The notes beneath the pieces were generated by a model, which worked only from the letters and a program-made list of their open reading frames with translations, made no database searches and was not told the origin of the DNA. A DNA stretch of 36,700 nt from Phycisphaerae bacterium (GTDB taxonomy: Bacteria; Planctomycetota; Phycisphaerae; UBA1845): contig JAJDDT010000060.1 in assembly GCA_029260165.1 (NCBI GenBank), positions 1-36,700 of the forward strand, read 5' to 3'. The position numbers were made by a program, and so were the translations under genes. Position 1 is the stretch's first letter; each line of letters begins with the position of its first letter. Shown here in pieces: positions 17,901 through 34,126 of the stretch.

Positions 17901-20758
17901 TTCCTTGCGATCTCTTTTTCAAATGGTGGGAGTTCACAGGCGTTGGGTCGTTGAAGGTCGTGTATGACGATGGCGTCTGCGGCGTGGTTGGCTGCCTGGG
18001 ATTTAGTTCGGGCGAGGTTGATGGCGCGGTCGCGGGCGTTGTCATCGGGTTTGTATTTGGCGTGGAGATTGCGGTGGATGTTGGCTTGTTCGTGGTTGTC
18101 GAGTTGGGCGTAGAGCAGGCCGAGGTTGTGGTGGGCGGTGACGTTTTCGGGATCGAAGCTGAGTGATTGTTTGAACCACGCGACGGCTTCTCGCAGGAGT
18201 TTTTCGCGGGCAGGTTTGCTGGATGGGCCTCGCTCCTGTTTGGCGCGTTCGAAAATGGTCTGGCCCAGTTCGTTGAGAAGGCGGTAGTCCTGTGAGAAGT
18301 CGAAACCTCGTTCACGTGTCTCGGCTGTGTCGATGCTGACGATTGTTCGGAAATTGTTGATGGCTTCGTCGATGAATCCGTTCTGCTTGTTGACCAGCCC
18401 GGTGAACCACGCGACGGACCATGGTGGTGCGGGTGGGTCGAATTGTGTGGCGCGGGCGAGGGCGGTGACGGCGTCTTCGAGTCTGCCTTCCTTGAGATAG
18501 ACGCGTGCGCGGTTGAGCGGTCCGTCGGGTCGATTGAGGTTTTCGACGGTTGTGAAGGCGTGCTCAGCCTGTCGCAATTCGCCGCGGTTGGCACCGGAAT
18601 TGCCTTTGCGCAGCAATCCTATGCCATAATCGTTCCAGCGTTGCCAGGGGATGATCGGCGATTTTTCGTTGGAGACGGTGTGGTTTTGGTTTGCGATGGG
18701 GAACGTGACCGAGTCGACGGCGAGGGTCATGATGGGCAGGTCGTTGGTGTTGAATTCGTCGCCCTGGAAGTGTTTCATGTAAATGGTGTCGAATTTTCGG
18801 TATTGCAGTTTGACCGTGACGGTGATGGGTTGGGTGACGTGTGGCGGGACGGTGAGTTTGTAGTGAATGACGTCGGCAGCTCCGGGTGGGATTTGGTTAT
18901 TGTACAAGGCGATGAAGATGTTCTCTGCGTTGCGGCGGTCGATGCGGTTTCCGTCGCGGTCGATGACGTACGCGTTGACGAAATGGGACCAGGGATCGAC
19001 GGTGTTGTCGTTATCGCGCATGCCTCCGCTGCGACCGATGACGCGATCGCCCGATTTCACGGTGACGTCCATCCAGACCTCGTTGGAATCGGCGGTCCCC
19101 TGCGTGAAGAGGTGGCCCATCTTGACGGTGCGGATGATGGTTTCGAAGAGGTAGGTCTGTCCGGGTTGGAGCGTCGGAATTTCGGGTCGGATGGGTGCGG
19201 TGAGTGGGCTGTCGATGGTGCCGCCTTTTTTGATTCCGAAGATGTCAACGCGCATGACGCCGTCGTTGAATTTTCGGTGGGCAGTGATGACGTCGTCGGG
19301 CAGGTTGAGCAGGTAGGGGATGGCTGTGTTGGCGCTGGGAAACTGATGGTTGTGGACAGTGAGTGTGCCGGTGTCGTCGAAATCCTTCGCGGCGAAGTCG
19401 TCTGAGATGTCGAGTGGCATGTGACAGCCATTGCAGTTTTGCTCGGCTGTTTCGGGATAATAAAAACTGGTGACGCCGTGACCGGAGACGCCGCTGAGGT
19501 GATAGGCGTCGTAGTGATTTTGTCCCCGGAGGAATTTGTAGGCGTTGAGTTCGACGGGAAGGTGCACCTTGTGGCAGGTTCCGCAGAATTCCGGTGATTT
19601 GTGAAATTCCTTGAGAAACGTCTTTTTGTGAAATTCCGGTTTGGCTTTGATGAGCTGTCGGTTGACCCACTTGAGAAGTGTGTTGTCGCTGAAGGCGAAG
19701 GGGTAGTGCGTGGGTTCCTCGATGGTGTAGTCGGCGTTTCCGCGGACGGTGTTGACGTGTGTGATGGCGTGGCAGGCGGTGCAGGTGATGCCCGCCTGGG
19801 CCATGGAATCGCCGGCGAGGTCGTAGTTGGGGTCGTCGAATTTGGGGTCGTCGAACGCGCCGCTGAAGAATGGGACGACGTCGTGACATCCCGCGCAGAA
19901 TCTGGAACCGCGTGCGTTGCCGTCGCGTTTGTAGAGGGCTTTGCGCGTGTTGAGCACAGAGAAGAGATAGGCGGGGTTATTGAACGAGGCGAACTTGTGC
20001 ATGCTGCGCGACCATGAGTCGTGGACATCGGGGTGGCAGTCTTTGCAGTAGGCGTCGTTGTTGAGTGTGCGTTCGGGGATGAAATTTCCGTCGGCGGTGC
20101 GGGCGAGCGAGGGGAAGAAGTATTGTTCGCCCGAGGCGGGACCAGCCACGTTCCACTTGCGTGGGTCCTGCGAGTGCATGGCGACCATGGCCAATGCGAA
20201 CGCGCATGAGGCTGCTCCCCATGCGACACCGATTTTCCATTTCAGTCGTTTGCCGGCCAGGCGATGGAGAATGAACAGCCAGACGGCGACGAGCGGAGTG
20301 ATGACGTGCGCCCAATAAGAGATGGTTCGCGTTTGGGGATGGTTGATGGCGAGTTTGAAACCGAGCAGTTCGACGCGTGTCAGGACGATCCCGCTGGCGA
20401 GGAGGATCAGCGATGTTGCGAACAGGCCATAACCGACGCGCATGGCTCGTTTGTTGGATCGGTGTTTGGTGTTGGCGATGTGGGTCAGTCCAAAGATGAT
20501 GACCGGCAGAACGATCGCGACACCCAGAATGAGGTGGGCGAGGAACATGAACTGGTAGAAATAATTCTGGTAGGTCTGTTCGGTGGCCCATTCGAGGATT
20601 GTGATGCTTGACAGATAGACTGAGTTGACGCCGAGCAGTGCGAACAGCGTGAAAACGACGATTAGCAGTCTGTGAAGTCGCGGACCGATGGCGGGGACGT
20701 AGCGACGGCGTGTGCTCGTGGATTTGGGCTTTTCACCCACCTGTGGCGCTGAGGTCAT
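17897..20758 (-). CDS. Membrane-anchored pentaheme cytochrome c with TPR domain
   Basis: The 953-residue protein has three parts. Residues 31-195 form about five membrane helices. Their His placement (H75, H93 in helix 2; H151, H165 in helix 4) would suit one or two b hemes. Residues 230-450 hold five CxxCH c-heme sites: CKDCH 238, CAGCH 288, CTACH 326, CGTCH 392 and CNGCH 442. Residues about 450-720 are a beta-sandwich region containing VKMGHLFTQGTADSNEVWMDV, seen in other multiheme proteins. Residues about 735-935 are TPR helices (HHNLGLLYAQLDNHEQANIH). It is the first gene of an operon with the CRTAC1 protein. It may pass electrons from the quinone pool into the periplasm; this is inference. 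The ATG at 20758 has a weak ribosome site but no better in-frame start exists. Confidence 0.9.
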   Translation of the reverse strand: MTSAPQVGEKPKSTSTRRRYVPAIGPRLHRLLIVVFTLFALLGVNSVYLSSITILEWATEQTYQNYFYQFMFLAHLILGVAIVLPVIIFGLTHIANTKHRSNKRAMRVGYGLFATSLILLASGIVLTRVELLGFKLAINHPQTRTISYWAHVITPLVAVWLFILHRLAGKRLKWKIGVAWGAASCAFALAMVAMHSQDPRKWNVAGPASGEQYFFPSLARTADGNFIPERTLNNDAYCKDCHPDVHDSWSRSMHKFASFNNPAYLFSVLNTRKALYKRDGNARGSRFCAGCHDVVPFFSGAFDDPKFDDPNYDLAGDSMAQAGITCTACHAITHVNTVRGNADYTIEEPTHYPFAFSDNTLLKWVNRQLIKAKPEFHKKTFLKEFHKSPEFCGTCHKVHLPVELNAYKFLRGQNHYDAYHLSGVSGHGVTSFYYPETAEQNCNGCHMPLDISDDFAAKDFDDTGTLTVHNHQFPSANTAIPYLLNLPDDVITAHRKFNDGVMRVDIFGIKKGGTIDSPLTAPIRPEIPTLQPGQTYLFETIIRTVKMGHLFTQGTADSNEVWMDVTVKSGDRVIGRSGGMRDNDNTVDPWSHFVNAYVIDRDGNRIDRRNAENIFIALYNNQIPPGAADVIHYKLTVPPHVTQPITVTVKLQYRKFDTIYMKHFQGDEFNTNDLPIMTLAVDSVTFPIANQNHTVSNEKSPIIPWQRWNDYGIGLLRKGNSGANRGELRQAEHAFTTVENLNRPDGPLNRARVYLKEGRLEDAVTALARATQFDPPAPPWSVAWFTGLVNKQNGFIDEAINNFRTIVSIDTAETRERGFDFSQDYRLLNELGQTIFERAKQERGPSSKPAREKLLREAVAWFKQSLSFDPENVTAHHNLGLLYAQLDNHEQANIHRNLHAKYKPDDNARDRAINLARTKSQAANHAADAIVIHDLQRPNACELPPFEKEIARK

Positions 20759-20924
20759 TTCAGGTATCCCACAAAAGTCGTACGGTTGAGCGTATCTCCG
20801 ACCCGAATGCTAAGCCTTGAGTTTAGCCCCGAAACGTGTCGATTGATAGTCGAAAGACCGAATGCAGGCGGCGGTCTCTTTTCATACCGTTTGTTCCTGT
20901 TGTATGCTGTTCGGTGGGAGTTCG

Positions 20925-22898
20925 ATGGATATACAGACAAAAGCAGACACTGATGATCCCGGACGGAATGAGAACGCTTCGGTTGAAGCGGGCATCGTCG
21001 ATTCGGGGCGTTGGCGTCAGCGGCTGGGGTTTTTGGCGATTGTTCTCGTTGGCTGTGCGGTGCGGGTATCCATCTTGTCGCGGGGGAAGATCGGGTACGT
21101 TCAGGACATCGACCTTTTTCTGTTGTGGACGCGAAATCTGACCGAGCATGGTCTTGGCGGGTTTTTCGAGGCGACCGGATTCTGCGACTACCCGCCGTTG
21201 TACTTGCTGGTGATGTGGGGTGTCGGGACGACGACGATCGCACTGGGATGGGATATCGGTAACGACCAGCTTCTCGCGACACTGCTGAAAGTGCCACCCT
21301 GCATGGCGGATCTGGTCATCGTGTTTCTTCTGTATTTTTTCGGTCGAACGATTGTCGGTCGTCGTCGGGCGTTGGCTGCGTCGGCGTTGTACTTCCTGAA
21401 TCCGATCACGTTTTACAACTCAGCCTATTGGGGGCAGATCGACGCGGTTCATACGGCCCTCCTGTTGGCGGCGGTTGGTCTTGTGGGTCGGCGGATGGAT
21501 TTCTCAACCGGTGTTCTGGCAGGATTGGCGTTGCTGCAGAAATTTCAGAGCATCGCGCTTCTGCCCCTGCTGTTGTTCGATGCGTATCTGTTCCGCCGAT
21601 GGCGCGGCCTCGTCGTTATGGTCCTTGGCGCGTTGTTGTCAGCCATCTGCGTGCTGCTGCCGTTCATGACGCATGGTGTGGCTGGTACGGTTTGCGAGCG
21701 TGCCTACGTCAGTGTCGTCGGGCAGTACAATCAGCGGTCCGCAAGCGCGTTCAATGTCTGGTATTTGATTGGAAATGCGGGCGACACCGATACCACGATA
21801 CCCCGTTCGATCGTTGAATACGTCGCCAGGGGCCGCGACTCGGTATTGGCTGACGAGTCACCGTTGTTTGAAATAACGTGGCGGCGGGTGTCGTTGGTGG
21901 CATTTTCGATTCTCGTCGCGGTGGTGCTGTCGTTGTACGGGCGTTACCCGAGCGCGGTGCGTCGATACGCGACGGCGGGCCTGTTGGCGATGCTGTTCTT
22001 CCTGGTGCCGACCGAGATGCACGAGCGGTATGCGCATCCTGCTGTGGCACTGCTGGCGATTTGGGCGGTGACGGGCGTCTGGCGGGAGCGGGCGTATGTG
22101 ATGCTGTCGCTGCTGTTGCTGTTGAATTACACATACGTTCAGCCCATCGAACCGATCGCGCCGGAATTGGCTGGTTTGACCGTGTTGTTGCTGCTTGTGG
22201 TGATGGGTTCGCAATTCTTTCGACCGCGTGCACCATCCCCGCCTGACGACGTTCCCATGGAGGTGGTCGACGGGCCTCCGCCATCGCTGCTGGTACGAAC
22301 GTTCGGGTGGGCATCGACCCTGTCGCTGTGCGTGTTTGCGGCGTGCGGGGGATATCTTTTCATCGCGGTGCGGACGGAATGGCTGGCGAGCAGGTCGGTG
22401 GCGAACTCGTCAATCGTTGCCGAGGCGGCCCCAGGCAGATGTGTTGTGATGCTGGACGAGGTCGATCCGGTTTCGTCGTCGCAGAGTTGGCTCGAATTGC
22501 GTCGAGGCGCGACCGTTGACGGCGGCGTGATTCAACTGGACGACAGACTGTATCTTCGCGGAATCGGCGTGCATGCCGCCTCGGATGTGACGTACGATGT
22601 TCCGGCGGATTGCGCGACGTTTAACGCGCTGGCTGGGATTGACGCGGAGACCAGGGGTATGGGTTCGGCTGTGCTGGAGGTACTGCTTGACGGAAGTGTT
22701 GCGTTTCGCTCGGATGTCTTGATGGCGGACACCCCGCCTGTGTCGATTGCGATTCCTGTGGGCCAGGCGACTCGTCTACGTCTGCGAGCCCTTCCGACAC
22801 CGGATGGGATTTCGAATGATCATGTATCCTGGGCGCTGGCGCGGTTTGAGTGTCTTGTGCCTGGGGAACACGGTGACCGCCGATCACCGAGAGATTAG
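20925..22898 (+). CDS. GT-C type membrane glycosyltransferase with C-terminal NPCBM-like domain
   Basis: The 657-residue protein has about 10-12 membrane helices. An acidic motif in the first external loop (GYVQDIDLFLLWTRNL) is typical of polyprenyl-phosphate-sugar-dependent GT-C enzymes. CDYPPLYLLVMW, ALYFLNPITFYNSAYWGQIDAVH and LVPTEMHERYAHPAVALLA resemble the DUF2029/GT87 and PIG-M-like mannosyltransferase group. After a last helix near 475-495, residues about 515-650 form a soluble domain with LYLRGIGVHAASDVTYDV and CATFNALAGIDAE, matching NPCBM/NEW2 (PF08305), a galactose-type carbohydrate-binding fold. The ATG at 20925 has GGGAG 4 nt upstream; earlier in-frame starts at 20862 and 20904 lack a site. 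Its stop overlaps the stop of the convergent NHL gene. Donor and acceptor are unknown. Confidence 0.87.
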   Translation: MDIQTKADTDDPGRNENASVEAGIVDSGRWRQRLGFLAIVLVGCAVRVSILSRGKIGYVQDIDLFLLWTRNLTEHGLGGFFEATGFCDYPPLYLLVMWGVGTTTIALGWDIGNDQLLATLLKVPPCMADLVIVFLLYFFGRTIVGRRRALAASALYFLNPITFYNSAYWGQIDAVHTALLLAAVGLVGRRMDFSTGVLAGLALLQKFQSIALLPLLLFDAYLFRRWRGLVVMVLGALLSAICVLLPFMTHGVAGTVCERAYVSVVGQYNQRSASAFNVWYLIGNAGDTDTTIPRSIVEYVARGRDSVLADESPLFEITWRRVSLVAFSILVAVVLSLYGRYPSAVRRYATAGLLAMLFFLVPTEMHERYAHPAVALLAIWAVTGVWRERAYVMLSLLLLLNYTYVQPIEPIAPELAGLTVLLLLVVMGSQFFRPRAPSPPDDVPMEVVDGPPPSLLVRTFGWASTLSLCVFAACGGYLFIAVRTEWLASRSVANSSIVAEAAPGRCVVMLDEVDPVSSSQSWLELRRGATVDGGVIQLDDRLYLRGIGVHAASDVTYDVPADCATFNALAGIDAETRGMGSAVLEVLLDGSVAFRSDVLMADTPPVSIAIPVGQATRLRLRALPTPDGISNDHVSWALARFECLVPGEHGDRRSPRD

Positions 22899-23956
22899 CG
22901 GCGCTCGCCGACGGCGTAGAGACTGATGCGATGAAGGCCAACGGTGTTGCCGACGAAGACGTAGTAGTCGGGGTTGAAGTCGTCGGGCACGAGCGCTGTG
23001 ACGTTTTCCGGCAAGTCCCGTGCGACAGCAACGCCCATCGGCATCGGTGTGGCACCGGGTCGATCCCCGTCCTTGCCCAGGAGCATGAGAAGTCGTCCCT
23101 GTTTGTCGAAAAGGTGAAACCGGGCGAATTCCGCGTCGGCGATGATGGCCACGCCGTCCGGGGCGATGTCGAGGTGTTTGGGTTTTCCCATGTCGCCGTA
23201 GCGATTGCCGGGTCGACCAAACTGTCTGACGTGGTGGCCGGCGGTGTCGAATACCTGAACGCGGGAATTCATCATGTCCGCGACGAGGACGTGGTCGCTC
23301 GTGACGGCGACGCCTGACGGATAGTACAGCGCGTCGTCTGCGTCACCGGCCTTTGCGATTCTCGTCGTCCATGTCGCGGAGTTCACGTCGAATTCGTGAA
23401 TCGCGTGGGCTGCGATGTCGGTCGCCCAGAGACGTTGGCCTGAAACAGCGATGGCTGTCGGGCGAAACGCACCGTCGGTGGGCGATGGGAGCGACTGTCC
23501 CGCGCCCGACGAGTCGAATTGTACGATACCCCGCCTGCTCGTGTCGGCGACGAAGACGTTGCCCGAGTCATCCACGGCGACGTCGACCGGTTTTTGCAGG
23601 GTGGCTGACCCCGAGAGTCCGAGACGACGGGCGTCACCGGTGGCAAGGTTCCAGTCGTGCACGATGTTCCTGCCGGTGTCGCAGATGTAGAGATGGCTCG
23701 CGTGGTAATCGATGCCGGCGGGTCGAGCGACAAACGGGCTGACGGGTCCGCCCGTGAATGCGTTTGCCCACGAGTGCTCCGGTGACACGATGTCGTCGAG
23801 GGCGTTGAACGAAACGATGTGGACGACACGCGGTTGTGCGGATTCCTGCGGGAAGTAGACCCACTCCGGCTCGATCCGGGTCTGCGCGCACCCCGCCACG
23901 ACACAAATCAGGATCAGAGATGATGCGAGACCGACGCGAACTATTTTCGATGACAT
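22895..23956 (-). CDS. NHL-repeat beta-propeller lipoprotein (NHL2)
   Basis: The 353-residue protein has a lipoprotein signal (VRVGLASSLILICVVAGC, lipobox VAGC). NHL repeats follow, forming a six-bladed propeller: GIDYHASHLYICDTGRNIVHDW, PVDVAVDDSGNVFVADTSRRGIVQF, PTAIAVSGQRLWATDIAAHAIHEF, PSGVAVTSDHVLVADMMNSRVQVF and PKHLDIAPDGVAIIADAEFARFHLF. Such propellers often act as protein-binding scaffolds. It is the last gene of the five-gene porin-cytochrome operon. Its ATG (23956) lies inside the end of the tetraheme gene, a 16-nt overlap, and a TTG at 23965 is the alternative. It has no own ribosome site at the usual distance, so translation is probably coupled. It is paralogous to the NHL lipoprotein at 26318-27331. 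A surface or periplasmic role at the outer membrane is inferred from the lipobox and neighbours. Confidence 0.9.
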   Translation of the reverse strand: MSSKIVRVGLASSLILICVVAGCAQTRIEPEWVYFPQESAQPRVVHIVSFNALDDIVSPEHSWANAFTGGPVSPFVARPAGIDYHASHLYICDTGRNIVHDWNLATGDARRLGLSGSATLQKPVDVAVDDSGNVFVADTSRRGIVQFDSSGAGQSLPSPTDGAFRPTAIAVSGQRLWATDIAAHAIHEFDVNSATWTTRIAKAGDADDALYYPSGVAVTSDHVLVADMMNSRVQVFDTAGHHVRQFGRPGNRYGDMGKPKHLDIAPDGVAIIADAEFARFHLFDKQGRLLMLLGKDGDRPGATPMPMGVAVARDLPENVTALVPDDFNPDYYVFVGNTVGLHRISLYAVGERR

Positions 23957-24525
23957 GTCAAGCACAGTGCGCTCCGCTCGTTGCTCCTGACCAGCATGAA
24001 GGGTGCGCCAGCCGTATTGTGTGGATCATGACACGACACGCATTCGACGTTGCCGGCGGGTAATTTGACAACACCCTCCGCTTCCAACACACCTGCGGGC
24101 CGAAAACCGCGGTCAATATTGGGATAGGCAACGCCGACCGGGTGATCGGTGGTGCCATGACCGAGCGCGAAAATACCGTCGTGCTGGTGATTGGCAAATG
24201 AATTTCCGGAGACGCCGCTGATGGTGTCGCCCGCAATGGTGCCGTCATGACAGCGGAGGCACATCATCGTGCCCCGCTGCGGGTTGGCGTCACCACCGAC
24301 GGCGGTGCCAAACGTTTTGTTCAGGTCTGCGTCGGGTTCCCACAACGGACCCTGCGTCGGTGCGACACTGCGATGGGGGACGTGGCAGGCGGCGCACAGG
24401 TCCCCGCCGGTCCACTCCCTGCTGCTGAAATCGTGCTTGCTGTTTTCGATGCCCGCCCAACCTAGAAAAACGATTCCGGATATCGCGAGCATCAGCGATG
24501 TCGTCATCATCGATTTTCGATTCAT
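23941..24525 (-). CDS. Tetraheme cytochrome c (paired CxxCH)
   Basis: The 194-residue exported protein has an N-terminal hydrophobic signal (residues about 6-26) and four CxxCH sites: CAACH 44-48, CLRCH 89-93, CVSCH 162-166 and CLTCH 188-192. Extra His residues (for example VPH, DHP, DPH) could serve as distal ligands. The layout CxxCHxPH...GPLW...CLxCHDGT...DHPVGxxY...CVSCHDPHN matches the first four-heme section of the 12-heme protein encoded just upstream, so the two are paralogous. No lipobox is seen; it is probably periplasmic, or processed from a membrane-held signal. Its ATG overlaps the upstream stop as ATGA, with an AGGAAGGG site before it. It is the fourth gene of the operon and likely hands electrons to or from the 12-heme protein. 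Confidence 0.92.
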   Translation of the reverse strand: MNRKSMMTTSLMLAISGIVFLGWAGIENSKHDFSSREWTGGDLCAACHVPHRSVAPTQGPLWEPDADLNKTFGTAVGGDANPQRGTMMCLRCHDGTIAGDTISGVSGNSFANHQHDGIFALGHGTTDHPVGVAYPNIDRGFRPAGVLEAEGVVKLPAGNVECVSCHDPHNTAGAPFMLVRSNERSALCLTCHRK

Positions 24526-26321
24526 CTTCGTATTCCCTTCCTGGTCGCGCCGCGGGTATTGGTAGCCCCGCGTGCGGATGTTCCGGCGGCGCTGTTAGCG
24601 TACGGAAATTGGAGATGGGCTACCCCATGACAGGTCAGCGTGCAGTTGCCCGATATTCGACCCGTGTCGGTGTATTGCAGCATCGGGCCGAATGGGGTGT
24701 CGGCGGTCGTCACGACACTCGTGTCGAAATTGATCAGACTGCTGTGGTTTGTCGCGTTGCCCTGCCCGCGGTAGATTCCATGCGCATCGTGACAAATGCT
24801 GCAAGGTGCGCGAAGGTCGACGACGTGCAGCCGATGCAGCGTGAAACTCTCGTTGCCGAGGATGCTGTCGCGACTGTGGCAGCGGTAGCACAATGCGTAC
24901 GATTGGGCGCTTTCCATCGTGAAATCATCCGTTTCGTAGTTTGCAACCAATAGCGGATCGTAGATGGAACCGTGTGGACCGCTGGCACCGGTACCGCCTG
25001 CGAATCGCGAGCTGTCGCTGTTGTGGCAATCCGTGCAGGTGACGGTCGATCCGACGCGCAACGGCGATATCAGGCTGACCACGTCCGGGTTTCGTCGCGC
25101 ACCAGCCACCGGATGGAACGACGGATTGCCCGGTTGAAATTCGAGCCGTGTGTTGGTCTGACTGATCTGCCGAGTCGTGGTCAGCCGCGGACGTGCGGCG
25201 CTGTCGCCATGACATTTGAAACAGATTTCGTACCCAAACTGCGAATGATCAATCTCGCGACCCGTGATGGTGACCCCGCTGACGAACCGATTCGGTCCCT
25301 CGACAAACCGACCCTGCGTGCCGCGAACCGAACCGACAGGGTTGTGCGAGACGGCGTGGGGGTTGTGACAATCGACGCACTCGACGTGTCTGGCCATCGA
25401 GAATGGCAATTCAGCCGGGTCGTGGACGTTGGCTCGCAGCGATCCGTCGTGACCGGAGCGTTTGCGGATGTCGGCTGCGATGTTGAAACTGGCGACATCG
25501 CCACTGTGACAGTTCAGGCAGTTGTCCTCCTCGCGTTGATGGCGGAGCAATCGTTCATGATTTCGGGCGGAGTGCACCTTGTGGCAGTTTGTGCATCCGT
25601 TATCGCGAACCGTACCATAAGGCAGTCGTTCCCATTGATCGACGGTCCGACCCGTGACACGTTTGCCGCTGTTGGCGTGTGCGCTGCCCTGCCAACCCGC
25701 GAGGTCGTGACACGAGATGCAGATGGCGGACATCTGATCGGTGACGCGCAGGAAGTTGCCAAGCTCGTTGTTGTGCGGGTCGTGACAGGTTGTGCAGTGC
25801 ACCTCACCATGATCGCCCATCGGCAGCAGGTTTGAAACGACCTCGGGCGCTCGGATTTGCGCATCGGCGTTTGAGAGTGCCCGGTCGTATCGGAATCCGA
25901 TCGGGTGGTCGTCGCTCAGGTCCGTGGCCAGGTCGGCGTTTCCGGGTGGCATGGTGCGAAACGTCGTGACGACGGGCTCGCTCGCGGGTCGTGAAAACAC
26001 GTTGCCCAACGCAAGGGTGCCGTCATGACAGCTCAAACACATTTTCGACGGTCCACCAGGCTGATCGATACGCGCATCGGTTGTCGAGCTTTCGTAGATG
26101 CGGTAATGCGTCCGCCGGTTTTCGCGATTCCACAACGGGGTTTGCGGGGCGTTGTTGTGCGGTGCGTGGCAGAAGATGCAGATTTCGTTCTCGTGTACCG
26201 CGCGGACGGGGCCGACGCCACGGGCGGAAAGATCGTGCAACGAATTCACGACCGACTCGTCCGCAAGCGCGGTTGATACCAAAACGCAAGACGCCAAAAC
26301 CAATTGATTCAATCTGCTCAT
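24522..26321 (-). CDS. Dodecaheme cytochrome c (11 CxxCH plus one CxxxCH)
   Basis: The 599-residue exported protein has signal peptide NQLVLASCVLVSTALA. Eleven CxxCH sites start at residues 48, 95, 176, 201, 243, 268, 315, 367, 429, 478 and 507. One CxxxCH (CTLTCH) is at 560-565. Residues 48-205 repeat the layout of the neighbouring tetraheme protein; the remaining eight sites form an extension. The last 20 residues are basic (ARGATNTRGATRKGIRR). Twelve hemes is also the number in outer-surface cytochromes of some porin-cytochrome systems (Geobacter OmcB), but I see no specific alignment to it. It overlaps the NHL1 gene by ATGA (26318-26321), with GGAAGG before the ATG. No lipobox is present, so surface location must rest on the porin. 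It is the probable electron wire of the operon. Confidence 0.93.
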   Translation of the reverse strand: MSRLNQLVLASCVLVSTALADESVVNSLHDLSARGVGPVRAVHENEICIFCHAPHNNAPQTPLWNRENRRTHYRIYESSTTDARIDQPGGPSKMCLSCHDGTLALGNVFSRPASEPVVTTFRTMPPGNADLATDLSDDHPIGFRYDRALSNADAQIRAPEVVSNLLPMGDHGEVHCTTCHDPHNNELGNFLRVTDQMSAICISCHDLAGWQGSAHANSGKRVTGRTVDQWERLPYGTVRDNGCTNCHKVHSARNHERLLRHQREEDNCLNCHSGDVASFNIAADIRKRSGHDGSLRANVHDPAELPFSMARHVECVDCHNPHAVSHNPVGSVRGTQGRFVEGPNRFVSGVTITGREIDHSQFGYEICFKCHGDSAARPRLTTTRQISQTNTRLEFQPGNPSFHPVAGARRNPDVVSLISPLRVGSTVTCTDCHNSDSSRFAGGTGASGPHGSIYDPLLVANYETDDFTMESAQSYALCYRCHSRDSILGNESFTLHRLHVVDLRAPCSICHDAHGIYRGQGNATNHSSLINFDTSVVTTADTPFGPMLQYTDTGRISGNCTLTCHGVAHLQFPYANSAAGTSARGATNTRGATRKGIRR

Positions 26322-27331
26322 GATGCCTTCCGCAGGTATTGAAACACCTGTACGCGACGATTGCCACTATCCGCAATCCATACGCGGTCAAGATCGTCGA
26401 TCCAGATGCCCGCGGGAAGCCAGAATGAACCCAACCCGGTTCCCTCCTGACCAAACGCCATCAACAATCGTCCAGCCGGGTCGAACACCTGCACGTTTTC
26501 AAACTGCGCATCGCCGACAAAAACATGTCCGTCGCCGTCGAACGCGACCCCCTTCGGCAGCGACAGGTCGCCGGCAGCGTTACCTTTGTGCCCAAACATC
26601 GAAACAGGTGTTCCGTCGAGTTTCAGGATTTGCACCCTGGAATTCCCGCTGTCAGCCACAACCAACCGATCCTGACGACAACAAAGATGCGTCGGAAAAT
26701 TGAACTCACCCGGCCCGACACCACGTTTGCCAATCGTCCGCAGCAGGGTGCCGTCCAACGCGAATACCTTGATATCATGCGCCATACCATCCACCACAAA
26801 CAACCGGTCCCGGCATGAGGCTATTCCGACCGGTCTGCCAAGATGCTCGCTACCCAGGGTACCCCGCACGATCCCCGAACGCGACAACTCGATCACCTCG
26901 CCCCTGTCAGCATCGGTCACGAAAATCCGTTCGCCGACAAACGTGACCCCCAAAGGCACGCTGAACCGCTCGTCATCCCAGCCCGTCACGCGAATGTGAT
27001 CACGCCTGTCCAGATCGACAATATGCACCGCGCTACTCCCCGTGTCGGTCACCGCCAACAACGCGTTGTTCGCAATCGCCACCGCGTGTGGACTGACGAA
27101 TCGGATAGGCTGACGTCGTCCGCGAAACGCCTCAGCCATCGATTCCCATCCGGTGACGCCCGCATTCAAATCGTCACTGCCGGCGTACTGACCGATCAGC
27201 GACAAACGAGCGGCCGCGGGAGGCGGTGGCCAACGCATCGGCGAGTCCATCGCCGGAAACATCTCGCCCCGCGCTCGAGCGCAACCGGCTGGAACAACCG
27301 CCGCAGCGCACGCAATCACGAGCATGGTCAT
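26318..27331 (-). CDS. NHL-repeat beta-propeller lipoprotein (NHL1)
   Basis: The 337-residue protein has a short lipoprotein signal (MTMLVIACAAAVVPAGC, lipobox PAGC). NHL repeats follow, such as AVAIANNALLAVTDTGSSAVHI, VGIASCRDRLFVVDGMAHDIKVF, PTHLCCRQDRLVVADSGNSRVQIL, PKGVAFDGDGHVFVGDAQFENVQVF and PAGIWIDDLDRVWIADSGNRRVQVF, a propeller of about six blades. The ATG at 27331 is preferred because it starts the signal directly. An ATG at 27364 would add 11 residues and overlap the porin gene by 17 nt. It lies between the porin and the 12-heme gene, so it may hold the cytochrome at the barrel or cap it. It is paralogous to NHL2. Confidence 0.9.
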   Translation of the reverse strand: MTMLVIACAAAVVPAGCARARGEMFPAMDSPMRWPPPPAAARLSLIGQYAGSDDLNAGVTGWESMAEAFRGRRQPIRFVSPHAVAIANNALLAVTDTGSSAVHIVDLDRRDHIRVTGWDDERFSVPLGVTFVGERIFVTDADRGEVIELSRSGIVRGTLGSEHLGRPVGIASCRDRLFVVDGMAHDIKVFALDGTLLRTIGKRGVGPGEFNFPTHLCCRQDRLVVADSGNSRVQILKLDGTPVSMFGHKGNAAGDLSLPKGVAFDGDGHVFVGDAQFENVQVFDPAGRLLMAFGQEGTGLGSFWLPAGIWIDDLDRVWIADSGNRRVQVFQYLRKAS

Positions 27332-27347
27332 ACCGCGAAATATCCTG

Positions 27348-29417
27348 TCACCGTGCCAACACATTCGGAAAATCCCGTCGAAACCTCACGAACACACCAA
27401 AATTGTCTTCCTCGGACTCCGGCAGGTCCAACCGGTCATACTCCAACGTCAACGAGCAAAGCAAGTCTCCGATCGAATATTCCAGACCAGCCGTCACATC
27501 CCAACTGTGCGTCGTCCCGTCGACCGAATCATCCTCGAGACGGTATCCTAACCGCTCCACGGTCGACAATGCCTCGCTGATCCGCCATCTATGGTCCAAC
27601 TGCAAATCCAGCAGCGACACGTTACGATCGTCAAACTCACCATCGAAAAACAATCGCGACAACCGCGCCGTGGCTGACACGGTTTGGTCCGGGTCCCTCA
27701 ATAAATCAACCCGTCCGTCCAGGTGAAACCCGTGAAATCGTTCCACCGGATCGTCGTAGACCTCATACTCCGCCCCAAGCGAATACCGATCCCGATCGAA
27801 CACAACGCCGACTCGATGATGATCCGTCCGATCCGCCCGACGCAGAAACCCCTCCGACGTGTCGTCTTCCTGATTGCGATACGACAAACGATAGTAGGGA
27901 CGCAACCCGTTAGAAAACCGCTGCTCAAGACTGAAATCCACACGCATCGAGTCCAGTTGCCCGTTCTGAGGCGTCGCAACCTGATAATCCACCAGCACCG
28001 TGTCGCCGTTGACGATCAACCCACCAGGCAGTCGATCGATCAGCGTCGCGTTTCCCCGATGCAGGATCGCGTAATCAATCCCGGCACGCAAAACCCGTCG
28101 ATTCGTCGAATCGGTCACCACAACGCTGCTGCGAACCACGTTGGCATTCCGCAGTTCCACCGGCACCGGATCACGCAGCGCGATCGATTCGTCGAGCACG
28201 ATTCGCCTGCCGTCGTCACCGTCGATTTCCTCGGTATCGTAGGACAATGCCAGATTCGCATAAAAATGTCCCCACCGATTGCGACGGTTGTACTGCCAAT
28301 CCACCAGCGCCCCGTACTGCGTCGTGTTGATGTCGTCCTCGATGTCTTCATACAGTCCGAACACATCAAACGTCGTCGTCAGGTTTGAATACCATTGATG
28401 CACGATTTGAAAATCCGCCCGCTGCGTTTCAACGTCTAGCCCCTCGTACCGCTCGCGATTGAATTGATACTTGTAAAGCGTCTGCAGGCTGTCGGAGTGC
28501 TGAATAATCAGTTGCGGGCCGATCTCGAACAGGTCGCGTGCGAAATCGCCGCTTTCCTCCTGCCAGTGAACCAGCGTGCGAAACGTGTGTTGCCTGTCGT
28601 CGCCGAACTGCAATTCGTGGTCAACGCGGATCAGATCGCGCGTCGTTTCAAAATCGCGGTCCGCTCCCTGAAACGCCTGTTTGATGTTGCCGTGTTCGTA
28701 CGAAAAATCGACCTTGTGACCGTCGTCGATGTTCCACCCCTGCCGCACATGGAAAATGCTGTCGGTGTAGTGCTCGTCGTCAATTTCACGCACGTTGTTC
28801 GTGCGATCCGTTTCGCGATGGTCGTAGCGAAGTTCCATCGGGAATTTTTCGTCGGCATAATACAAACTGCCACCAAAAGCGGTCACGCGTTCGCGCAATG
28901 TCGGCTGAAACGCCCGATTGATTCGGTTGTCCACCCGCCGCCCATACACGCTTCCCGACAGCTTCTCGCCCGGGAAAAAATTCGCCCGCAGGTCGTATTC
29001 AGCCAGATACCCGCGATCCGTGTCCGTTCGATCCCCCGCAAATCCACGTTCCTCGAATCGGCTCTGCGACAACCCGAAGCTCAACGTTCCACCAAACGTG
29101 ATGGTCTTCGGATTGATCAGCGTTCCCGCAATCCGAAGCCCCAACTGCTCCTCAATCGTCCACTGCTCGTTTGATTGCGAGTTCTTACGCCGGAACAGAC
29201 GACCGCTTTCCGGAAGGGTCGATTCCACCTCGCGGTGAGAAAAATCCCCCTCAATCTCAAAAAATGCGTCCAGTTCGGTCAGCGAAAAAAGTGAAGGTCC
29301 TGGCCGATCGGGTTTGTCGTCTGCCAATGTCGACGCGCCCGCCACCCCCAACAGCGCAATGGCCATCACGCCACCCGTCAGCCGGTTTCTGCAGACTATG
29401 ACCGTGCCGCTCGCCAA
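27348..29417 (-). CDS. Outer-membrane beta-barrel (porin component of a porin-cytochrome conduit)
   Basis: After a signal peptide ([23 protein letters not shown]) the protein is nearly all alternating amphipathic strands with aromatic girdles and charged turns, for example [58 protein letters not shown] and [13 protein letters not shown]. It is about 690 residues, the size range of large decaheme-linked barrels such as MtrB, PioB or OmbB, though no family motif is recognised. The frame is open to a GTG at 29552, but a good sigma-70 promoter (29558-29586) would start transcription at about 29551. The TTG at 29417, with GAGGTGGAAG 4 nt upstream and a normal signal peptide, is therefore preferred; ATG 29366 is a further option. 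It is first in the operon and would let a multiheme wire cross the outer membrane. Confidence 0.85.
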
Positions 29418-29557
29418 TCGTCTTCCACCTCGGTCAGACACCGCTTCGGTCGACGACACCGCCCGCGCGAGCGCATTCGCCGATCGTGTTCCTACTGCGC
29501 AAACCCTGTTATCAAGCGACACCGCACCGGCCATCACGGTCCACTCAACCACCCCAC

Positions 29558-29586
29558 TCTATAGGCGATGTTTTCGACCTTCGCAA
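29558..29586 (-). promoter_or_regulatory. Sigma-70-like promoter of the porin-cytochrome operon
   Basis: On the minus strand TTGCGA (29586-29581) and TATAGA (29563-29558) are 17 nt apart, with 4 of 6 consensus matches each. The start of transcription would be near 29551. Confidence 0.5.
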
Positions 29587-29627
29587 CCAAATTCCGCGCA
29601 CAAACCGCGCCAACCCACGTCGGCGTA

Positions 29628-29655
29628 TTGAACTTCAGGTACAACGTGATACGTT
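29628..29655 (+). promoter_or_regulatory. Candidate promoter of the rightward redox operon
   Basis: TTGAAC (29628-29633) and TACGTT (29650-29655) are 16 nt apart, 35 nt before the pentaheme start codon. The -10 is weak. Confidence 0.3.
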
Positions 29656-29689
29656 ACCCTGCAAGGACGTTGGCGTTGGGAGTCGATCG

Positions 29690-30262
29690 ATGCGCGGATT
29701 TATATGCTTTTCCTGTCTGTTCCTGGCGGTCATGCTCGGATGCTCGCAGGAATCCACGAACCGGTTCATGCACTGGTTCTTCGAAATCCCCGACGAACCA
29801 ACTTCCCAGGCAACCGCCAACGAGCCATCACCCACCAACCGCGTGAATGATCGTTCCGCCACCGACACCACCCCCGTCTTCGCATCGCGTCATCCACCCT
29901 ACGTCGCCCAACAATGCACCCGATGTCACGATGCCTCGACAAGGATGGCTGTCCGGGAGGATTTTGCGGACGTGTGCACGACCTGTCACGCGATGTACTA
30001 CACCGAAAAGGTCGGACATGCACCAGCCGCCGAAGGAGATTGCCGCGTCTGCCACGAGATGCACCGAAGTCGTCAGCCCGCGCTGTTGAAGACCACCGTC
30101 CTGGAAACCTGCGCGGAGTGTCACGACTACCCCGAAGACCTCAGCCCCGAGGCGCACGGCGGTGACGACGCCGAAAACTGCATCAAATGTCACGATCCGC
30201 ATTTCGGCTCGGACATGTTCCTGCGCGAGTCCTATCACCGGTCGATCAAAAAAGGAGAGTAG
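29690..30262 (+). CDS. Pentaheme cytochrome c lipoprotein
   Basis: The 190-residue protein has a lipoprotein signal ([15 protein letters not shown], lipid Cys18) and a linker of about 50 residues rich in Thr, Asn and Pro. Five CxxCH sites follow: CTRCH 76, CTTCH 96, CRVCH 118, CAECH 141 and CIKCH 164. HEMH, HDP and HAP-type His residues are available for bis-His ligation. The ATG at 29690 has GGGAG about 7 nt upstream; the longer frame from 29486 would overlap the divergent promoter region and lacks a signal peptide. It is the first gene of the rightward operon, 2 nt before the next gene. The flexible lipid tether suggests a periplasmic electron shuttle held at a membrane, plausibly feeding the barrel-associated cytochrome encoded on the other strand. 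Confidence 0.9.
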
Positions 30263-30264
30263 CC

Positions 30265-30753
30265 ATGCGCCGCAACATCATGACGAGCGCCATGTTGACC
30301 GCCATCGCCCTTTGCGGCTGCGGCACGAATTTCGACGCCCTCCTGCTCCAGTCGCTCGCCGCTCGCGGGACGACGGTTCTCGACCTGATCATCACCGATG
30401 TTGTGGATCAGGTCGTCGACAACCTCGATCAAACCCCCGTCGATCAGCCCGGCGACAATGATGGTCCTGACAGCAGCGATGGTCCGGATAACAGCAACAT
30501 GGACCCACCCCCGGACGATCTCATGCCCGATACCGCGGCCGGTATGGCCTTCTATGCCGCCAATGGTTGCGGCGGATGCCACTGCGACGACGGATCCGGC
30601 GGGTGCGCCCTCAGCGCCCCACCTCTGTTCGACGTCAATGCAGAAACAACGGGTGCAATTCTTCGCGGGGAGCAATCCCATCCGATTGCCCCACTTGATA
30701 TTTCGCAGCAGGAATTGGCCGACCTGGAAAGCTTTTTCGCTTCTCTGCAATAA
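30265..30753 (+). CDS. Monoheme cytochrome c lipoprotein
   Basis: The 162-residue protein has a lipobox-like LCGC (lipid Cys19) and a disordered Asp/Asn/Pro linker (about 55-88). A short class I-type cytochrome c domain follows: GMAFYAANGCGGCHCDDGSGGC with CGGCH at 102-106. It ends in the typical C-terminal helix (ISQQELADLESFFASL). Two additional Cys close to the heme site (C108, C114) may form a disulfide. The ATG at 30265 has AGGAG 7-8 nt upstream, and only 2 nt separate it from the pentaheme gene. It is a membrane-tethered single-electron carrier by family; its partner is inferred from gene order. Confidence 0.87.
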   Translation: MRRNIMTSAMLTAIALCGCGTNFDALLLQSLAARGTTVLDLIITDVVDQVVDNLDQTPVDQPGDNDGPDSSDGPDNSNMDPPPDDLMPDTAAGMAFYAANGCGGCHCDDGSGGCALSAPPLFDVNAETTGAILRGEQSHPIAPLDISQQELADLESFFASLQ

Positions 30754-30885
30754 TTTCCCGCCCATTCACATTAGAATGGTAAGCGAGCGACCCCGGCGAC
30801 CACATGCGTCGATACCGGTGTTCGCGGGCGGCGTCGCGTGTGCGCGCCGGGGAGCCGGAAGCAACGAAATCGTCAGGAGTACCAG

Positions 30886-31755
30886 ATGAAGACATCATCT
30901 TTCATTGGCGCGATTCTCGCGCTGTTCAGCCTGGTTCAGACAGCCGGCGCACAGACCACCCACACCGTCAATCTCACCATCGCCAGCAGGTTTGACCCAG
31001 CCAACATCACCATCAACGTCGGCGATACCGTTCGCTGGGTGTGGACCGGTGGTTTTCACAACGTCGAGAGCGGTGTGGGCGGCGTCCACAACGGTGTTTT
31101 CAGATCGGGGAATCCGACCGCCGCGTCCGGCACAGAATTTGAAGTGACATTTAGCCAGGGTCTTCTCGACGCAGCTCCGGCACCAGATGGTATTTACAAC
31201 TACTACTGTATCGTGCACGTCGATTTCGGCATGACCGGTTCGGTCTCCGTCGAGGCAGCAGGACCCGCCGGTCCGGGCGATGGGGATGGTGACGGGGATG
31301 TTGATCTCGATGACTACGAAGCCTTTCAGGATTGCATGACCGATCCCCAGGCTGCCGGCGGCGCGACCACGCATGATGTGTCCCTCTCGTTCGCAAACCT
31401 GTTCACCCCACCCGACGTCACGATTGCGGTCGGCGACACCGTTCGCTGGACGTGGGGAGGTGGATTCCACAACGTCGAAAGCGGCGTGGGTGGCAGTCAT
31501 GATGGCAACTTCCGTTCCGGAAGTCCGACGGCGACGAGCGGAACCATGTTCAGTCAGACGTTTGACCAGGCCTATCTCGACGGCAATCCGATGCCGGACA
31601 ATCTCTACCCCTATTACTGCATCGTGCATGTCGATTTCGGCATGATCGGCAGCGTCGCCGTCGAAGGCGATTCATGTGCGACGTTCGATTTTGACAACGA
31701 CGGCGACGTCGATTTTGCCGATTTTGGCGGGTTTCAAAGGGTCTTTCAGCCCTAG
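30886..31755 (+). CDS. Secreted protein with two plastocyanin-like cupredoxin domains
   Basis: The 289-residue protein has a signal peptide (SFIGAILALFSLVQTAGA) and two type 1 copper domains. Domain 1 (about 24-124) has the ligand set His58, Cys108, His111, Met116. Domain 2 (about 162-260) has His195, Cys245, His248, Met253. Both carry the C-x2-H-x4-M ligand loop YYCIVHVDFGM of blue copper proteins. A dockerin-like EF segment lies between the domains (GDGDGDGDVDLDDYEAFQDC) and another ends the protein (FDFDNDGDVDFADFGGFQ). The ATG at 30886 has AGGAG 6 nt upstream. Cupredoxins pass single electrons; the tails suggest surface or matrix attachment. It follows the heme lipoproteins after 132 nt and probably shares their transcript. 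Confidence 0.9.
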   Translation: MKTSSFIGAILALFSLVQTAGAQTTHTVNLTIASRFDPANITINVGDTVRWVWTGGFHNVESGVGGVHNGVFRSGNPTAASGTEFEVTFSQGLLDAAPAPDGIYNYYCIVHVDFGMTGSVSVEAAGPAGPGDGDGDGDVDLDDYEAFQDCMTDPQAAGGATTHDVSLSFANLFTPPDVTIAVGDTVRWTWGGGFHNVESGVGGSHDGNFRSGSPTATSGTMFSQTFDQAYLDGNPMPDNLYPYYCIVHVDFGMIGSVAVEGDSCATFDFDNDGDVDFADFGGFQRVFQP

Positions 31756-31809
31756 GCAGACCACGCTGCGGCATGTTGTGACGGACGGTCTTTCAAGGAA
31801 TCAATCGAG

Positions 31810-33402
31810 ATGCGTTGTACGATGTCCATCATGATGGGTGCGGTGATGGGCGTGTTCGCCTCGAACACGTCGGCGCAAACCACGCACATGGTGACGCTCA
31901 CGTCACAGAACATGTTCGATCCATCCGACATTTCCATCAACGTTGGTGATACCGTGCGTTGGACGTGGGAAGCGGGTTTCCACAACGTCGAAAGCGGGTT
32001 GGGGGGTAACCACGACGGAAACTTCCGCTCCGGAGATCCAACAGCCACGAGCGGAACCATGTTCAGTCGGACGTTCGACCAGTCGTTTATCGACGGCAGT
32101 CCGATGCCGGGCAATATTTACCCTTATTACTGCATCGTGCACGTCGATTTCGGCATGATCGGATCGGTCACCGTCAACGGAATCTGCACGCCGGATTGTA
32201 CGGGTGCTGACTGCGGCGACGATGGTTGCGGCGGATCGTGTGGGGAATGCGACGATGGTGTTGGTTGCACGAACGACGTTTGCAATGGCAGCGTTTGTGT
32301 TTCAACCACCAACGACGCCAACTGTCCCAACGACAACCAGTTTTGCAATGGATCGGAATTCTGCGACCCGACCGGCGACTGCACGTCAACAGGGACCCCC
32401 TGTACGGGCAACGAAATCTGCGATGAATCGAATGAACGGTGCGTGCCGCTAAACGCCGGTGTTGTCGATGTTGACAACGACGGAATTGCCGACGCGTCGG
32501 ATAACTGCCCAAACGTGTCCAATGCAGACCAATTCGATACCGACGCAGACGGTATCGGCGACGCGTGTGACAGTACGCCCAACGGTGACGTCAATGATGA
32601 AGACAATGGCGACGAAAATGAAGTGACGCCGGATGACGATGATGTTCCGATGCGACCTGCCCCCAATCCGGGGACGGAAATCGTGGGGCAGTTTGGCATG
32701 GCGACGCTGGAGGCCTTCCAGCGTGACACGAATATCAAGGCGTCGGTCGTGGTATTGAGTGGTCAGCCCGACGAGCAGGTGGCAGCCGTCGTATTTGACA
32801 CCGGCGCGGAACCCGGGCTGACGGGCGCGACCACGTTGAACGGTTTTCTGGACGAGGCTGCGATTGGTGTGACGCTGGATGTCTGGACGTCGATGCAGCC
32901 TGGGTCGTTTCGGGCCGCCGTGCAGATGGACGTTCCGATGGCGGAATTGGACGACGTGGGGATTTCCGCGGAGAAAGCAGCCATTCATGTACTGGACGCG
33001 ACGGGAGATGAATTTTTCTGGATGGTGGCAGGTGACAAGTTTGTTGGAATGTCCGAGCCGACGTATTTCGTCGGTGATTATGGTTACGAGGCGGTCGGCG
33101 ACATCGTGAGATTCTGGGTGGTTCGCGATCGTTTCAGTGTGTTTGCAATTGGTGAAGTCAATCTGGATGGATTTCAACCGCGAGAAACTGCGGGAGATGA
33201 TTTTTCAAATATGGAGGATGATGAAGAGGTGTCCCCGGATGAGGATGCCAATAATATGGGTGATGACCCGGTGGCGGGTCAGGACGTGCCGATGGGTCCG
33301 CCGGGGATGACGGACGCGTGCGGGACGATGGGCGTGTTGTCGATGTCGGGCTTGATGGCGGGGATGGTGCCATTGACGCGCCGGCTTTGGTGGCGACGGT
33401 AG
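31810..33402 (+). CDS. Secreted cupredoxin with Cys-rich, TSP3-like regions and C-terminal anchor
   Basis: The 530-residue protein has a signal peptide (about 1-22) and one type 1 copper domain (24-124) with ligands His58, Cys108, His111, Met116. These are the same positions as in domain 1 of the preceding gene. A Cys-rich segment follows at 126-212, including CGDDGCGGSCGEC and FCNGSEFC units. A thrombospondin type 3-like Ca-binding repeat (VDVDNDGIADASDNCPN..DTDADGIGDACD) follows at 219-255, with an acidic linker after it. A beta-rich domain without a name spans about 285-455. A C-terminal hydrophobic stretch ends in a basic cluster (SGLMAGMVPLTRRLWWRR), like a sorting or anchor signal. The ATG at 31810 has AAGGA 11 nt upstream. 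It is likely displayed on the cell surface and redox-active through copper. Confidence 0.88.
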   Translation: MRCTMSIMMGAVMGVFASNTSAQTTHMVTLTSQNMFDPSDISINVGDTVRWTWEAGFHNVESGLGGNHDGNFRSGDPTATSGTMFSRTFDQSFIDGSPMPGNIYPYYCIVHVDFGMIGSVTVNGICTPDCTGADCGDDGCGGSCGECDDGVGCTNDVCNGSVCVSTTNDANCPNDNQFCNGSEFCDPTGDCTSTGTPCTGNEICDESNERCVPLNAGVVDVDNDGIADASDNCPNVSNADQFDTDADGIGDACDSTPNGDVNDEDNGDENEVTPDDDDVPMRPAPNPGTEIVGQFGMATLEAFQRDTNIKASVVVLSGQPDEQVAAVVFDTGAEPGLTGATTLNGFLDEAAIGVTLDVWTSMQPGSFRAAVQMDVPMAELDDVGISAEKAAIHVLDATGDEFFWMVAGDKFVGMSEPTYFVGDYGYEAVGDIVRFWVVRDRFSVFAIGEVNLDGFQPRETAGDDFSNMEDDEEVSPDEDANNMGDDPVAGQDVPMGPPGMTDACGTMGVLSMSGLMAGMVPLTRRLWWRR

Positions 33403-33442: not shown

Positions 33443-34126
33443 TTGAAATTCGCCTGCGGGTTGTTGGGGTGCGTGTTGGTTACCGTCGCGGTGTTTGGGG
33501 GGATCGGGGTTCGGGCGGAGGGTGACGACAAGTCTTCGACGGTGACGGCTGCGACTCCGGTGGCAGGGTTGGCTGATCGTCCTGTTCACGAATATGTGGG
33601 GACCAAGACGTGCCGCAAGTGTCACAGCAAGGTGCATCGCTCGATTCAGGAATCTCCAAAAGCCGACGTGTGGGAATTATTGCAGGCCGGGTCGCATGCG
33701 TCGGAGAAGCTGGCGGTCGGACTGAACCCGAAGATGGACTATTCGACGGATTCCCGATGTCTGCCCTGTCACACAGTGGGGTTTGGGCATTCGGGGGGAT
33801 ACGTCATTCCGCTGCCCGGTGATGACAAGGCTGAGCGCGATGCGCGGGTTCGACAAGGGGTTGGTTGCGAGTCGTGCCATGGTCCGGGGTCGTCGTTTAT
33901 CAAGGTGATGAAAAACGTGCGTCGTGAGAAGCGCGAGTATACGCGGGATGAGCTGTTCGCAGCCGGTTTGAGGCGGATTGATCAGCAGACGTGCAATGCC
34001 TGCCATAATGGCCGGGCGATGTGTGTGGTTGGGGGAGACGGCGGGGATTTGGGGAAGGCGCAGGTCGAGTTGAGTAACCGCGACGGTTATCACGCCGAAA
34101 CAACGTTGAAATATCGCAAGAGGTAG
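33443..34126 (+). CDS. Tetraheme cytochrome c554-like protein
   Basis: The 227-residue protein has a signal peptide (LLGCVLVTVAVFGGIGVRA) and four CxxCH sites: CRKCH 57, CLPCH 106, CESCH 142 and CNACH 184. The phrases YVGTKTCRKCHSKVHRS, CLPCHTVGFGHSGGY and GVGCESCHGPGS match the cytochrome c554/c' family (PF13435), known from the electron acceptor of hydroxylamine oxidoreductase in ammonia oxidisers and from many unassigned multiheme proteins. No hydroxylamine oxidoreductase is in this window, so the family match does not imply nitrogen metabolism. The start is TTG at 33443 with GGAGG 8 nt upstream. It is the fifth gene of the rightward operon, 40 nt after the cupredoxin gene. Confidence 0.88.
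   Translation: MKFACGLLGCVLVTVAVFGGIGVRAEGDDKSSTVTAATPVAGLADRPVHEYVGTKTCRKCHSKVHRSIQESPKADVWELLQAGSHASEKLAVGLNPKMDYSTDSRCLPCHTVGFGHSGGYVIPLPGDDKAERDARVRQGVGCESCHGPGSSFIKVMKNVRREKREYTRDELFAAGLRRIDQQTCNACHNGRAMCVVGGDGGDLGKAQVELSNRDGYHAETTLKYRKR

Follow-up and report, generated by a model that had tools for sequence, protein, structure and literature searches.

How are cytochrome nanowires anchored to the cell, and how are they loaded with electrons? To our knowledge, this is an open question. A gene cluster of a Phycisphaerae bacterium, on a contig analysed here as one whole stretch of 36.7 kb (JAJDDT010000060.1; G000:C75; hereafter the window), bears on it. A first-pass annotation of this DNA had proposed that five overlapping minus-strand genes, encoding an outer-membrane β-barrel, two NHL β-propeller lipoproteins and two multihaem cytochromes, form an electron conduit across the outer membrane, perhaps of a new family. 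All five open reading frames (ORFs) are confirmed with coordinates, and neighbouring genes overlap by 4 to 25 nt. The new point is that both multihaem proteins are, as judged by sequence, relatives of the nanowire cytochrome OmcE; the overall arrangement is of a known kind.

Two OmcE relatives in one cluster

The larger cytochrome (24522..26321, minus strand; 599 amino acids (aa)) has the 12 haem sites first ascribed to it, although not all are CxxCH: 11 CxxCH motifs are joined by one CxxxCH near the C terminus, and CxxxCH is the last haem motif in all 88 loci with a full-length 12-haem call. The smaller one (23941..24525, minus strand; 194 aa) carries four CxxCH motifs, as first described. 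Among 1000 composition shuffles of each protein, the maximum was two CxxCH.

In a sequence search of the PDB, OmcE (7tfs) was matched by residues 8–205 of the 12-haem protein with an E value of 1.6e-26, and entry 9yuq (‘putative multiheme cytochrome c’, 16 chains) by residues 7–206 with 3.2e-26. The tetrahaem protein matched the same two entries over most of its length (9yuq, E 5.5e-13; 7tfs, E 4.2e-8). An AlphaFold2 model of the 12-haem protein, built from a 49-sequence alignment (mean predicted local distance difference test (pLDDT) 81.5, predicted template modelling score (pTM) 0.79), had 7tfs as its sole Foldseek match at E ≤ 0.001 (2.5e-8; template modelling (TM) score 0.68 by OmcE length) and aligned to OmcE in VIA-align with a Z score of 11.7 and a root-mean-square deviation (rmsd) of 3.2 over 176 residues. 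The eight-haem C-terminal half gave weak fold matches, to OcwA (Z 5.2) and an S-layer undecahaem cytochrome (Z 4.8), which lie in the range the tool assigns to common arrangements and were not used.

According to passages of PMC12954529 and PMC9473688, one haem in OmcE and OmcS filaments takes a histidine ligand from the adjacent subunit. A simple pattern test finds the distal-histidine pattern of OmcE, four distal histidines for bis-histidine haems, kept in both window proteins, in 84 of 90 12-haem ORFs and in 66 of 75 tetrahaem ORFs. In the 12-haem protein, His29, conserved in 49 of 49 sequences, is a candidate for the inter-subunit histidine. Outside the haem motifs, 16 histidines are at least 90% conserved across these 49 sequences, enough in number to make bis-histidine ligation of 12 haems feasible.

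Sequence and model together identify the 12-haem protein as an OmcE relative in its N-terminal domain (residues ~28–206), followed by an eight-haem half that ends in CxxxCH. The tetrahaem protein is by sequence an OmcE relative throughout, and is a candidate filament subunit. We found no report of an OmcE domain in a 12-haem protein in the titles, abstract openings and selected passages searched outside bioRxiv, and our literature search returned no paper on 9YUQ or on proteins called OmcE-like, OmcE-family or OmcE-homolog.

A plugless barrel and a divergent pentahaem lipoprotein

The barrel gene (27348..29552, minus strand) is an ORF of 734 aa whose likely start at 29366 gives a 672-aa protein with a Sec-type leader. 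The outer-membrane barrel proposed earlier is borne out by the model (74 sequences, pLDDT 87.1, pTM 0.75), which shows a large barrel of 17 long strands, a small inserted β domain (residues ~449–526) and a further 11 strands, about 28 strands by count from the DSSP listing. It has no plug, the strands starting at residue 89, right behind the low-confidence leader. A TonB receptor, the outcome that the first-pass annotation had named as fatal to its proposal, was rejected for lack of a plug domain despite tied fold scores. In VIA-align, MtrB (6r2q_B) ranked top with Z 20.0 over 421 residues (rmsd 8.9), and its TM-scores of 0.40/0.44 were the highest among the best 50 Foldseek rows for the barrel. 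Membership of the MtrB family by sequence was rejected: PF11854 is lacking, and a barrel profile searched against the PDB gave just two weak porin matches (E 0.025 and 0.045). The Pfam OMP_b-brl family matched the barrel below cut-off. The inserted β domain is itself conserved, with the consensus SIVVTD..YxxGxDY..GxxTxIxR..GxIxDGxTVLVDY, and an NCBIfam phage tail-tube model matches there below cut-off.

The two propeller genes flank the OmcE relatives: NHL lipoprotein 1 (26318..27364, minus strand; 348 aa) adjoins the 12-haem gene, and NHL lipoprotein 2 (22895..23965, minus strand; 356 aa) adjoins the tetrahaem gene. NHL repeats stand well above the Pfam cut-off in both, in keeping with the original description, and by eye their N termini are lipobox-like (VPAGC and VVAGC).

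A sixth gene, divergent from the other five, belongs with the cluster. It encodes a pentahaem lipoprotein (29690..30262, plus strand; 190 aa from the likely start at 29690 within ORF 29486–30262) with five CxxCH motifs and, by eye, the lipobox VMLGC. Its haem stretch matched chain A of 6r2q (E 2.2e-9), a 333-residue chain that we take to be MtrA; the sequence library labels it ‘Cystathionine beta-synthase’, whereas 6R2Q is titled as the Mtr complex. With five CxxCH motifs only, the protein falls outside the MtrA/DmsE decahaem class, which has ten. Among 62 cytochromes encoded upstream of barrels, 40 have a lipobox, counted from crude start positions. The pentahaem lipoprotein is likely to be the wire inside the barrel.

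The gene set recurs across phyla

Among 294 genomes of the bacterium’s own phylum, the barrel (single-sequence search, E ≤ 0.001) was found in 12, including twice in the source genome, and the 12-haem protein (profile search, E ≤ 1e-60) also in 12; 11 genomes are common to both. The barrel lies beside other members of the set in 11 of 12 further loci, the remaining locus being a 7.4-kb contig that holds the barrel alone.

A scan of named genomes with the 12-haem alignment returned at least 560 stretches encoding a relative. Since the two patterns used for the scan fall within the OmcE-like half, some of these could be ordinary OmcE-like genes. In each of the best 80 stretches, the match takes in most of the 12-haem protein; their titles fall into 12 phylum-level groups: Planctomycetota, Bacteroidota (with Ignavibacteriaceae), Nitrospirota, Nitrospinota, Desulfobacterota (with Desulfuromonadales), Verrucomicrobiota, Calditrichota, KSB1, Zixibacteria, Hydrogenedentes, Pseudomonadota and Myxococcales; a few are titled just ‘bacterium’. 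Resemblance to the 12-haem protein thus decided which loci were taken; many of them are contigs of metagenome-assembled genomes, for which mis-binning is possible. Genes were labelled by the best hidden Markov model on mechanically called ORFs; for short multihaem genes these labels are approximate, since haem motifs raise the scores. Three alignments were used: the window and eight relatives (A1), the window and 73 of 85 labelled barrels (A2), and the window and 48 of about 90 12-haem ORFs (A3).

A full 12-haem call was made in 88 of 92 loci, the other four being left out of counts; the fetched stretches of these 88 contain a barrel in 80 and an NHL gene in 85. In the 45 loci where the sequence extends 6.5 kb or more to both sides of the 12-haem gene, a barrel is present in 43, an NHL gene in 44 (at least two in 43), a tetrahaem gene in 40 and a gene with 5–12 haems in 37, with all four kinds together in 33. 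The gene set is kept in relatives; a gene order conserved in no relative was another outcome that the first-pass annotation had named as refuting its proposal. Judging by title, a few loci share a genome (L028/L053, L031/L061 and L054/L089), and only two pairs among 90 12-haem ORFs are at least 90% identical.

The source genome holds the entire set a second time in diverged form (G000:C46:6387-15839, locus L015), with a 12-haem protein 45% and a barrel 26% identical to those of the window. A 13-haem gene adjoins this copy. Of the 20 matches to PF09699 (doubled CxxCH) in the genome, 18 are on the two cluster contigs, five of them in that 13-haem gene. A gene for a 13–15-haem cytochrome recurs beside the set in many loci (L015, L017, L023, L043, L054, L062 and others), and its product may be a further partner.

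Three proposed gene pairs within the set

Neighbours were counted within 400 nt, leaving out ORFs at most 1500 nt from a locus end. An NHL gene is this close to 61 of 68 12-haem genes and to 52 of 65 OmcE-like tetrahaem genes, and a barrel to 48 of 56 genes with 5–12 haems. For control genes with at least 13 haems, the corresponding counts are 3 of 26 (NHL) and 7 of 26 (barrel). Barrel, NHL and 12-haem genes are contiguous in 59 of 82 entries. In 14 entries (13 loci, seven titled Bacteroidota or Ignavibacteriaceae), a gap of over 2 kb separates the barrel from the 12-haem gene, and a listing of genes in those 13 loci shows the usual blocks to be NHL plus 12-haem and, separately, tetrahaem, NHL, pentahaem-type and barrel. 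Because these rearranged loci split the set into blocks, we infer three gene pairs: NHL with 12-haem, tetrahaem with NHL, and multihaem with barrel. The window differs in order from the rearranged loci, its tetrahaem–NHL pair lying apart from its pentahaem–barrel pair.

Five Geobacter-like genomes carry the two halves as separate genes

We also searched 146 genomes of one class, called Geobacter-like here because they encode OmcE relatives with a small PpcA-like triheme gene close by; the nearest of these relatives are 59–64% identical (G329, G300 and G310). Eight omcE loci (L116–L123; relatives 45–64% identical) combine an 8-haem gene, an NHL gene, the omcE relative and a gene for a 746–806-aa protein that is barrel-like by eye. 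A 10–11-haem gene is present in six of these eight loci and a 12-haem gene in none. The one 746–806-aa protein scanned had no Pfam match, and hhalign detected no homology between these proteins and the window barrel (probability 7.6%).

In five genomes (G329, G300, G310, G312 and G319), the halves of the 12-haem protein are separate adjacent genes, a 4-haem OmcE-like protein of 272–305 aa and an 8-haem protein of 366–383 aa, directly after an NHL gene. The last motif of the 8-haem protein is CxxxCH in all five. Such fusion or fission of the 12-haem halves supports two functional modules working together. The split pairs are in loci L125, L126, L127, L128 and L130, and a small 4-haem gene follows in L125–L128. 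In L125, the sole locus checked with Pfam, genes for a peptidyl-prolyl isomerase (PPIase), T2SSF and T2SSE lie near the pair. One of the five genomes, G312, also has the full six-gene set (L129).

A proposed joint between conduit and filament

We consider it somewhat probable that the cluster encodes an outer-membrane conduit, made of barrel and pentahaem wire, and that a 12-haem adaptor links this conduit to a filament of the OmcE type. What is observed is the order of the genes, the number of haems, the folds and the homologies; localisation, polymerisation, the adaptor role and the direction of electron flow are what we infer from them. The barrel would be a plugless sheath in the outer membrane, with the MtrA-like pentahaem lipoprotein running inside it as the wire across the membrane. 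At the barrel mouth would sit the 12-haem protein: electrons would move between its eight-haem half and the wire, and the OmcE-like half would serve as the first filament subunit, on which the tetrahaem protein could polymerize. The propeller lipoproteins may assist the OmcE-like proteins in folding, docking or length control. Electrons would then pass from the pentahaem protein in the barrel to the eight-haem half, the OmcE-like half and the tetrahaem filament, the conduit feeding or draining the filament. The conduit first proposed for this locus is upheld in its plugless barrel, its MtrA-like pentahaem partner and its conserved gene set, and changed in two respects: both cytochromes named in it are OmcE-type, and the closest likeness to MtrA lies in the divergent gene that it had left out.

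More tentatively, and as a possibility rather than an expectation, the 12-haem protein may be a dedicated base for filaments, in which a nanowire subunit and a haem bridge, fused into one protein, connect OmcE-type filaments directly to outer-membrane conduits. This part would be shared across the 12 phylum-level groups, and Geobacter-like bacteria would build the same join from two proteins.

In the chief rival reading, the barrel serves as a channel to export the OmcE-like cytochrome and the propellers act as chaperones, with trans-membrane electron transfer carried out by something else. Passages of PMC13194489 propose such roles for OscE, OscF and OscG (an export channel for cytochromes) and OscD (a chaperone), and the eight Geobacter-like omcE loci, with their NHL gene and barrel-like protein, fit this picture, as does the proximity of a split 12-haem pair to PPIase and type II secretion genes in L125. 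However, that barrel-like protein is not detectably related to the window barrel, and the commonest barrel neighbour is a 5–12-haem gene, MtrA-like in the window, a partner for which a simple export channel has no use. We regard export as unlikely. Somewhat less probable still is a conduit without a filament, in which barrel, pentahaem and 12-haem proteins form a porin–cytochrome complex and the tetrahaem protein, with its OmcE fold, remains a monomer and works as a surface or shuttle cytochrome. The tetrahaem protein UetA, described in passages of PMC10734462 as an extracellular cytochrome and not a filament, offers a precedent, and the window protein is only moderately similar to 7tfs; yet it retains the distal-histidine pattern, and its solved relatives are a filament (7tfs) and, going by chain count only, the 16-chain entry 9yuq. 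Finally, the barrel might be an unrelated outer-membrane receptor next to cytochrome genes, with no electron-transfer unit at all. TonB-dependent receptors do tie with MtrB within error in the fold comparison, but the barrel model lacks their plug domain, the set recurs in loci titled across the 12 groups, and barrel and 12-haem gene occur together in 11 genomes of the phylum. This conservation largely refutes an unrelated receptor, to which we give almost no credence.

Several observations nevertheless weigh against a conduit joined to an OmcE-type filament. TonB- and SusC-type barrels score within one Z unit of MtrB in VIA-align, and by Foldseek E value MtrB comes sixth, after Cir (at least two entries), the FimD usher and LptD chains; because of these ties and this order, MtrB is not singled out by fold alone, and the fold indicates only a very large barrel. 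PF11854 (MtrB/PioB) was matched neither by the barrel (E ≤ 1) nor anywhere in the genome, in agreement with the earlier remark that the barrel has no recognizable MtrB motif. NHL genes are also within 400 nt of 40 of 56 genes with 5–12 haems and of 52 of 68 barrels, so OmcE-like genes are not the only ones with a propeller gene as neighbour. In the Geobacter-like genomes, the split pair sits by an NHL gene without a barrel, and the barrel family is unmatched in G300, G310 and G319 and weakly matched (3e-4) in G329; the 12-haem module can therefore exist apart from the barrel. Among the 45 well-flanked loci, as labelled here, eight have no 5–12-haem gene, five no tetrahaem gene and two no barrel. 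A NapC/NirT-type quinol dehydrogenase was rejected as the electron source, as none was found in the genome.

A conserved gene in which a nanowire-subunit domain is fused to an eight-haem bridge, mostly with a propeller gene next to it and a barrel at the same locus, is a concrete, testable candidate for the joint between conduit and nanowire. It also points to filaments of the OmcE type in planctomycetes and in many further groups.

Other genes in the window

Downstream of the pentahaem gene, the plus strand encodes a single-haem protein and two plastocyanin-like cupredoxins (30187–33402), which are possible further electron carriers. A tetrahaem cytochrome c554-type protein follows (33443–34126, plus strand; four CxxCH; PF13435, E 6.7e-15), by Pfam not OmcE-like, and is another possible carrier. 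On the other side, a glycosyltransferase-like gene (20862–22898, plus strand) converges on the cluster and is not counted as part of it. At 16050–20758 on the minus strand, the gene for a 953-aa protein with five haems and tetratricopeptide (TPR) repeats overlaps that for a 616-aa FG-GAP/ASPIC-UnbV protein by 4 nt, perhaps as a separate pair. A protein with a reverse transcriptase domain is encoded close to the contig end (34927–36273, minus strand).

Comparison with known systems

As in MtrCAB of Shewanella, a large plugless barrel is encoded beside an MtrA-like cytochrome. The window differs in lacking PF11854, in having five haems rather than ten in the MtrA-like partner, and in adding propellers and OmcE-fold cytochromes. 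Another parallel is the osc (omcS companion) cluster of G. sulfurreducens, whose proteins Shen 2025 reportedly termed ‘channel-like’ and ‘propeller-like’. The likeness, by description only, is that proteins of these two kinds are encoded with a nanowire cytochrome (passages of PMC13194489). OmcS is set down in a passage of PMC9473688 as without sequence similarity to OmcE, which sets the osc cluster apart from that of the window.

The closer relation is to OmcE itself, shared by both window proteins in tetrahaem sequence and haem-ligand pattern and, for the 12-haem protein, in fold by model. The Geobacter-like omcE loci likewise place an NHL gene, an 8-haem gene and possibly a barrel, the 746–806-aa protein, beside the omcE relative; they differ in that none of the eight has a 12-haem gene, its halves lie elsewhere in five genomes, and their large protein shows no homology to the window barrel in hhalign.

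As a kind, the arrangement is not new, contrary to what the first-pass annotation had thought possible. Passages of PMC10734462 describe the Uet (undecahaem electron transfer) system of Tenderiales, also in Gallionella, with undecahaem UetJ, tetrahaem UetA, barrel UetC, NHL proteins UetHI, trihaem proteins UetDEG and the PPIase UetB; passages of PMC13264449 mention undecahaem porin–cytochrome clusters in Tenderiales and ‘Ca. Dechloromonas occultata’, and porin–cytochrome clusters in Planctomycetota. Likened by description and not by sequence, the window shares the barrel, the tetrahaem and the NHL proteins with Uet, and its 12-haem protein would count as an undecahaem by CxxCH alone. It differs in having one pentahaem lipoprotein where Uet has three trihaem proteins. 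No window ORF of at least 80 aa has exactly three haem motifs and no PPIase is among the 22 window ORFs scanned with Pfam; because neither was seen in this 36.7-kb contig, the set is Uet-like rather than Uet. It thus resembles the kind reported in iron- and cathode-oxidizing bacteria, and the OmcE domains described here link Uet-type porin–cytochrome complexes with OmcE nanowires.

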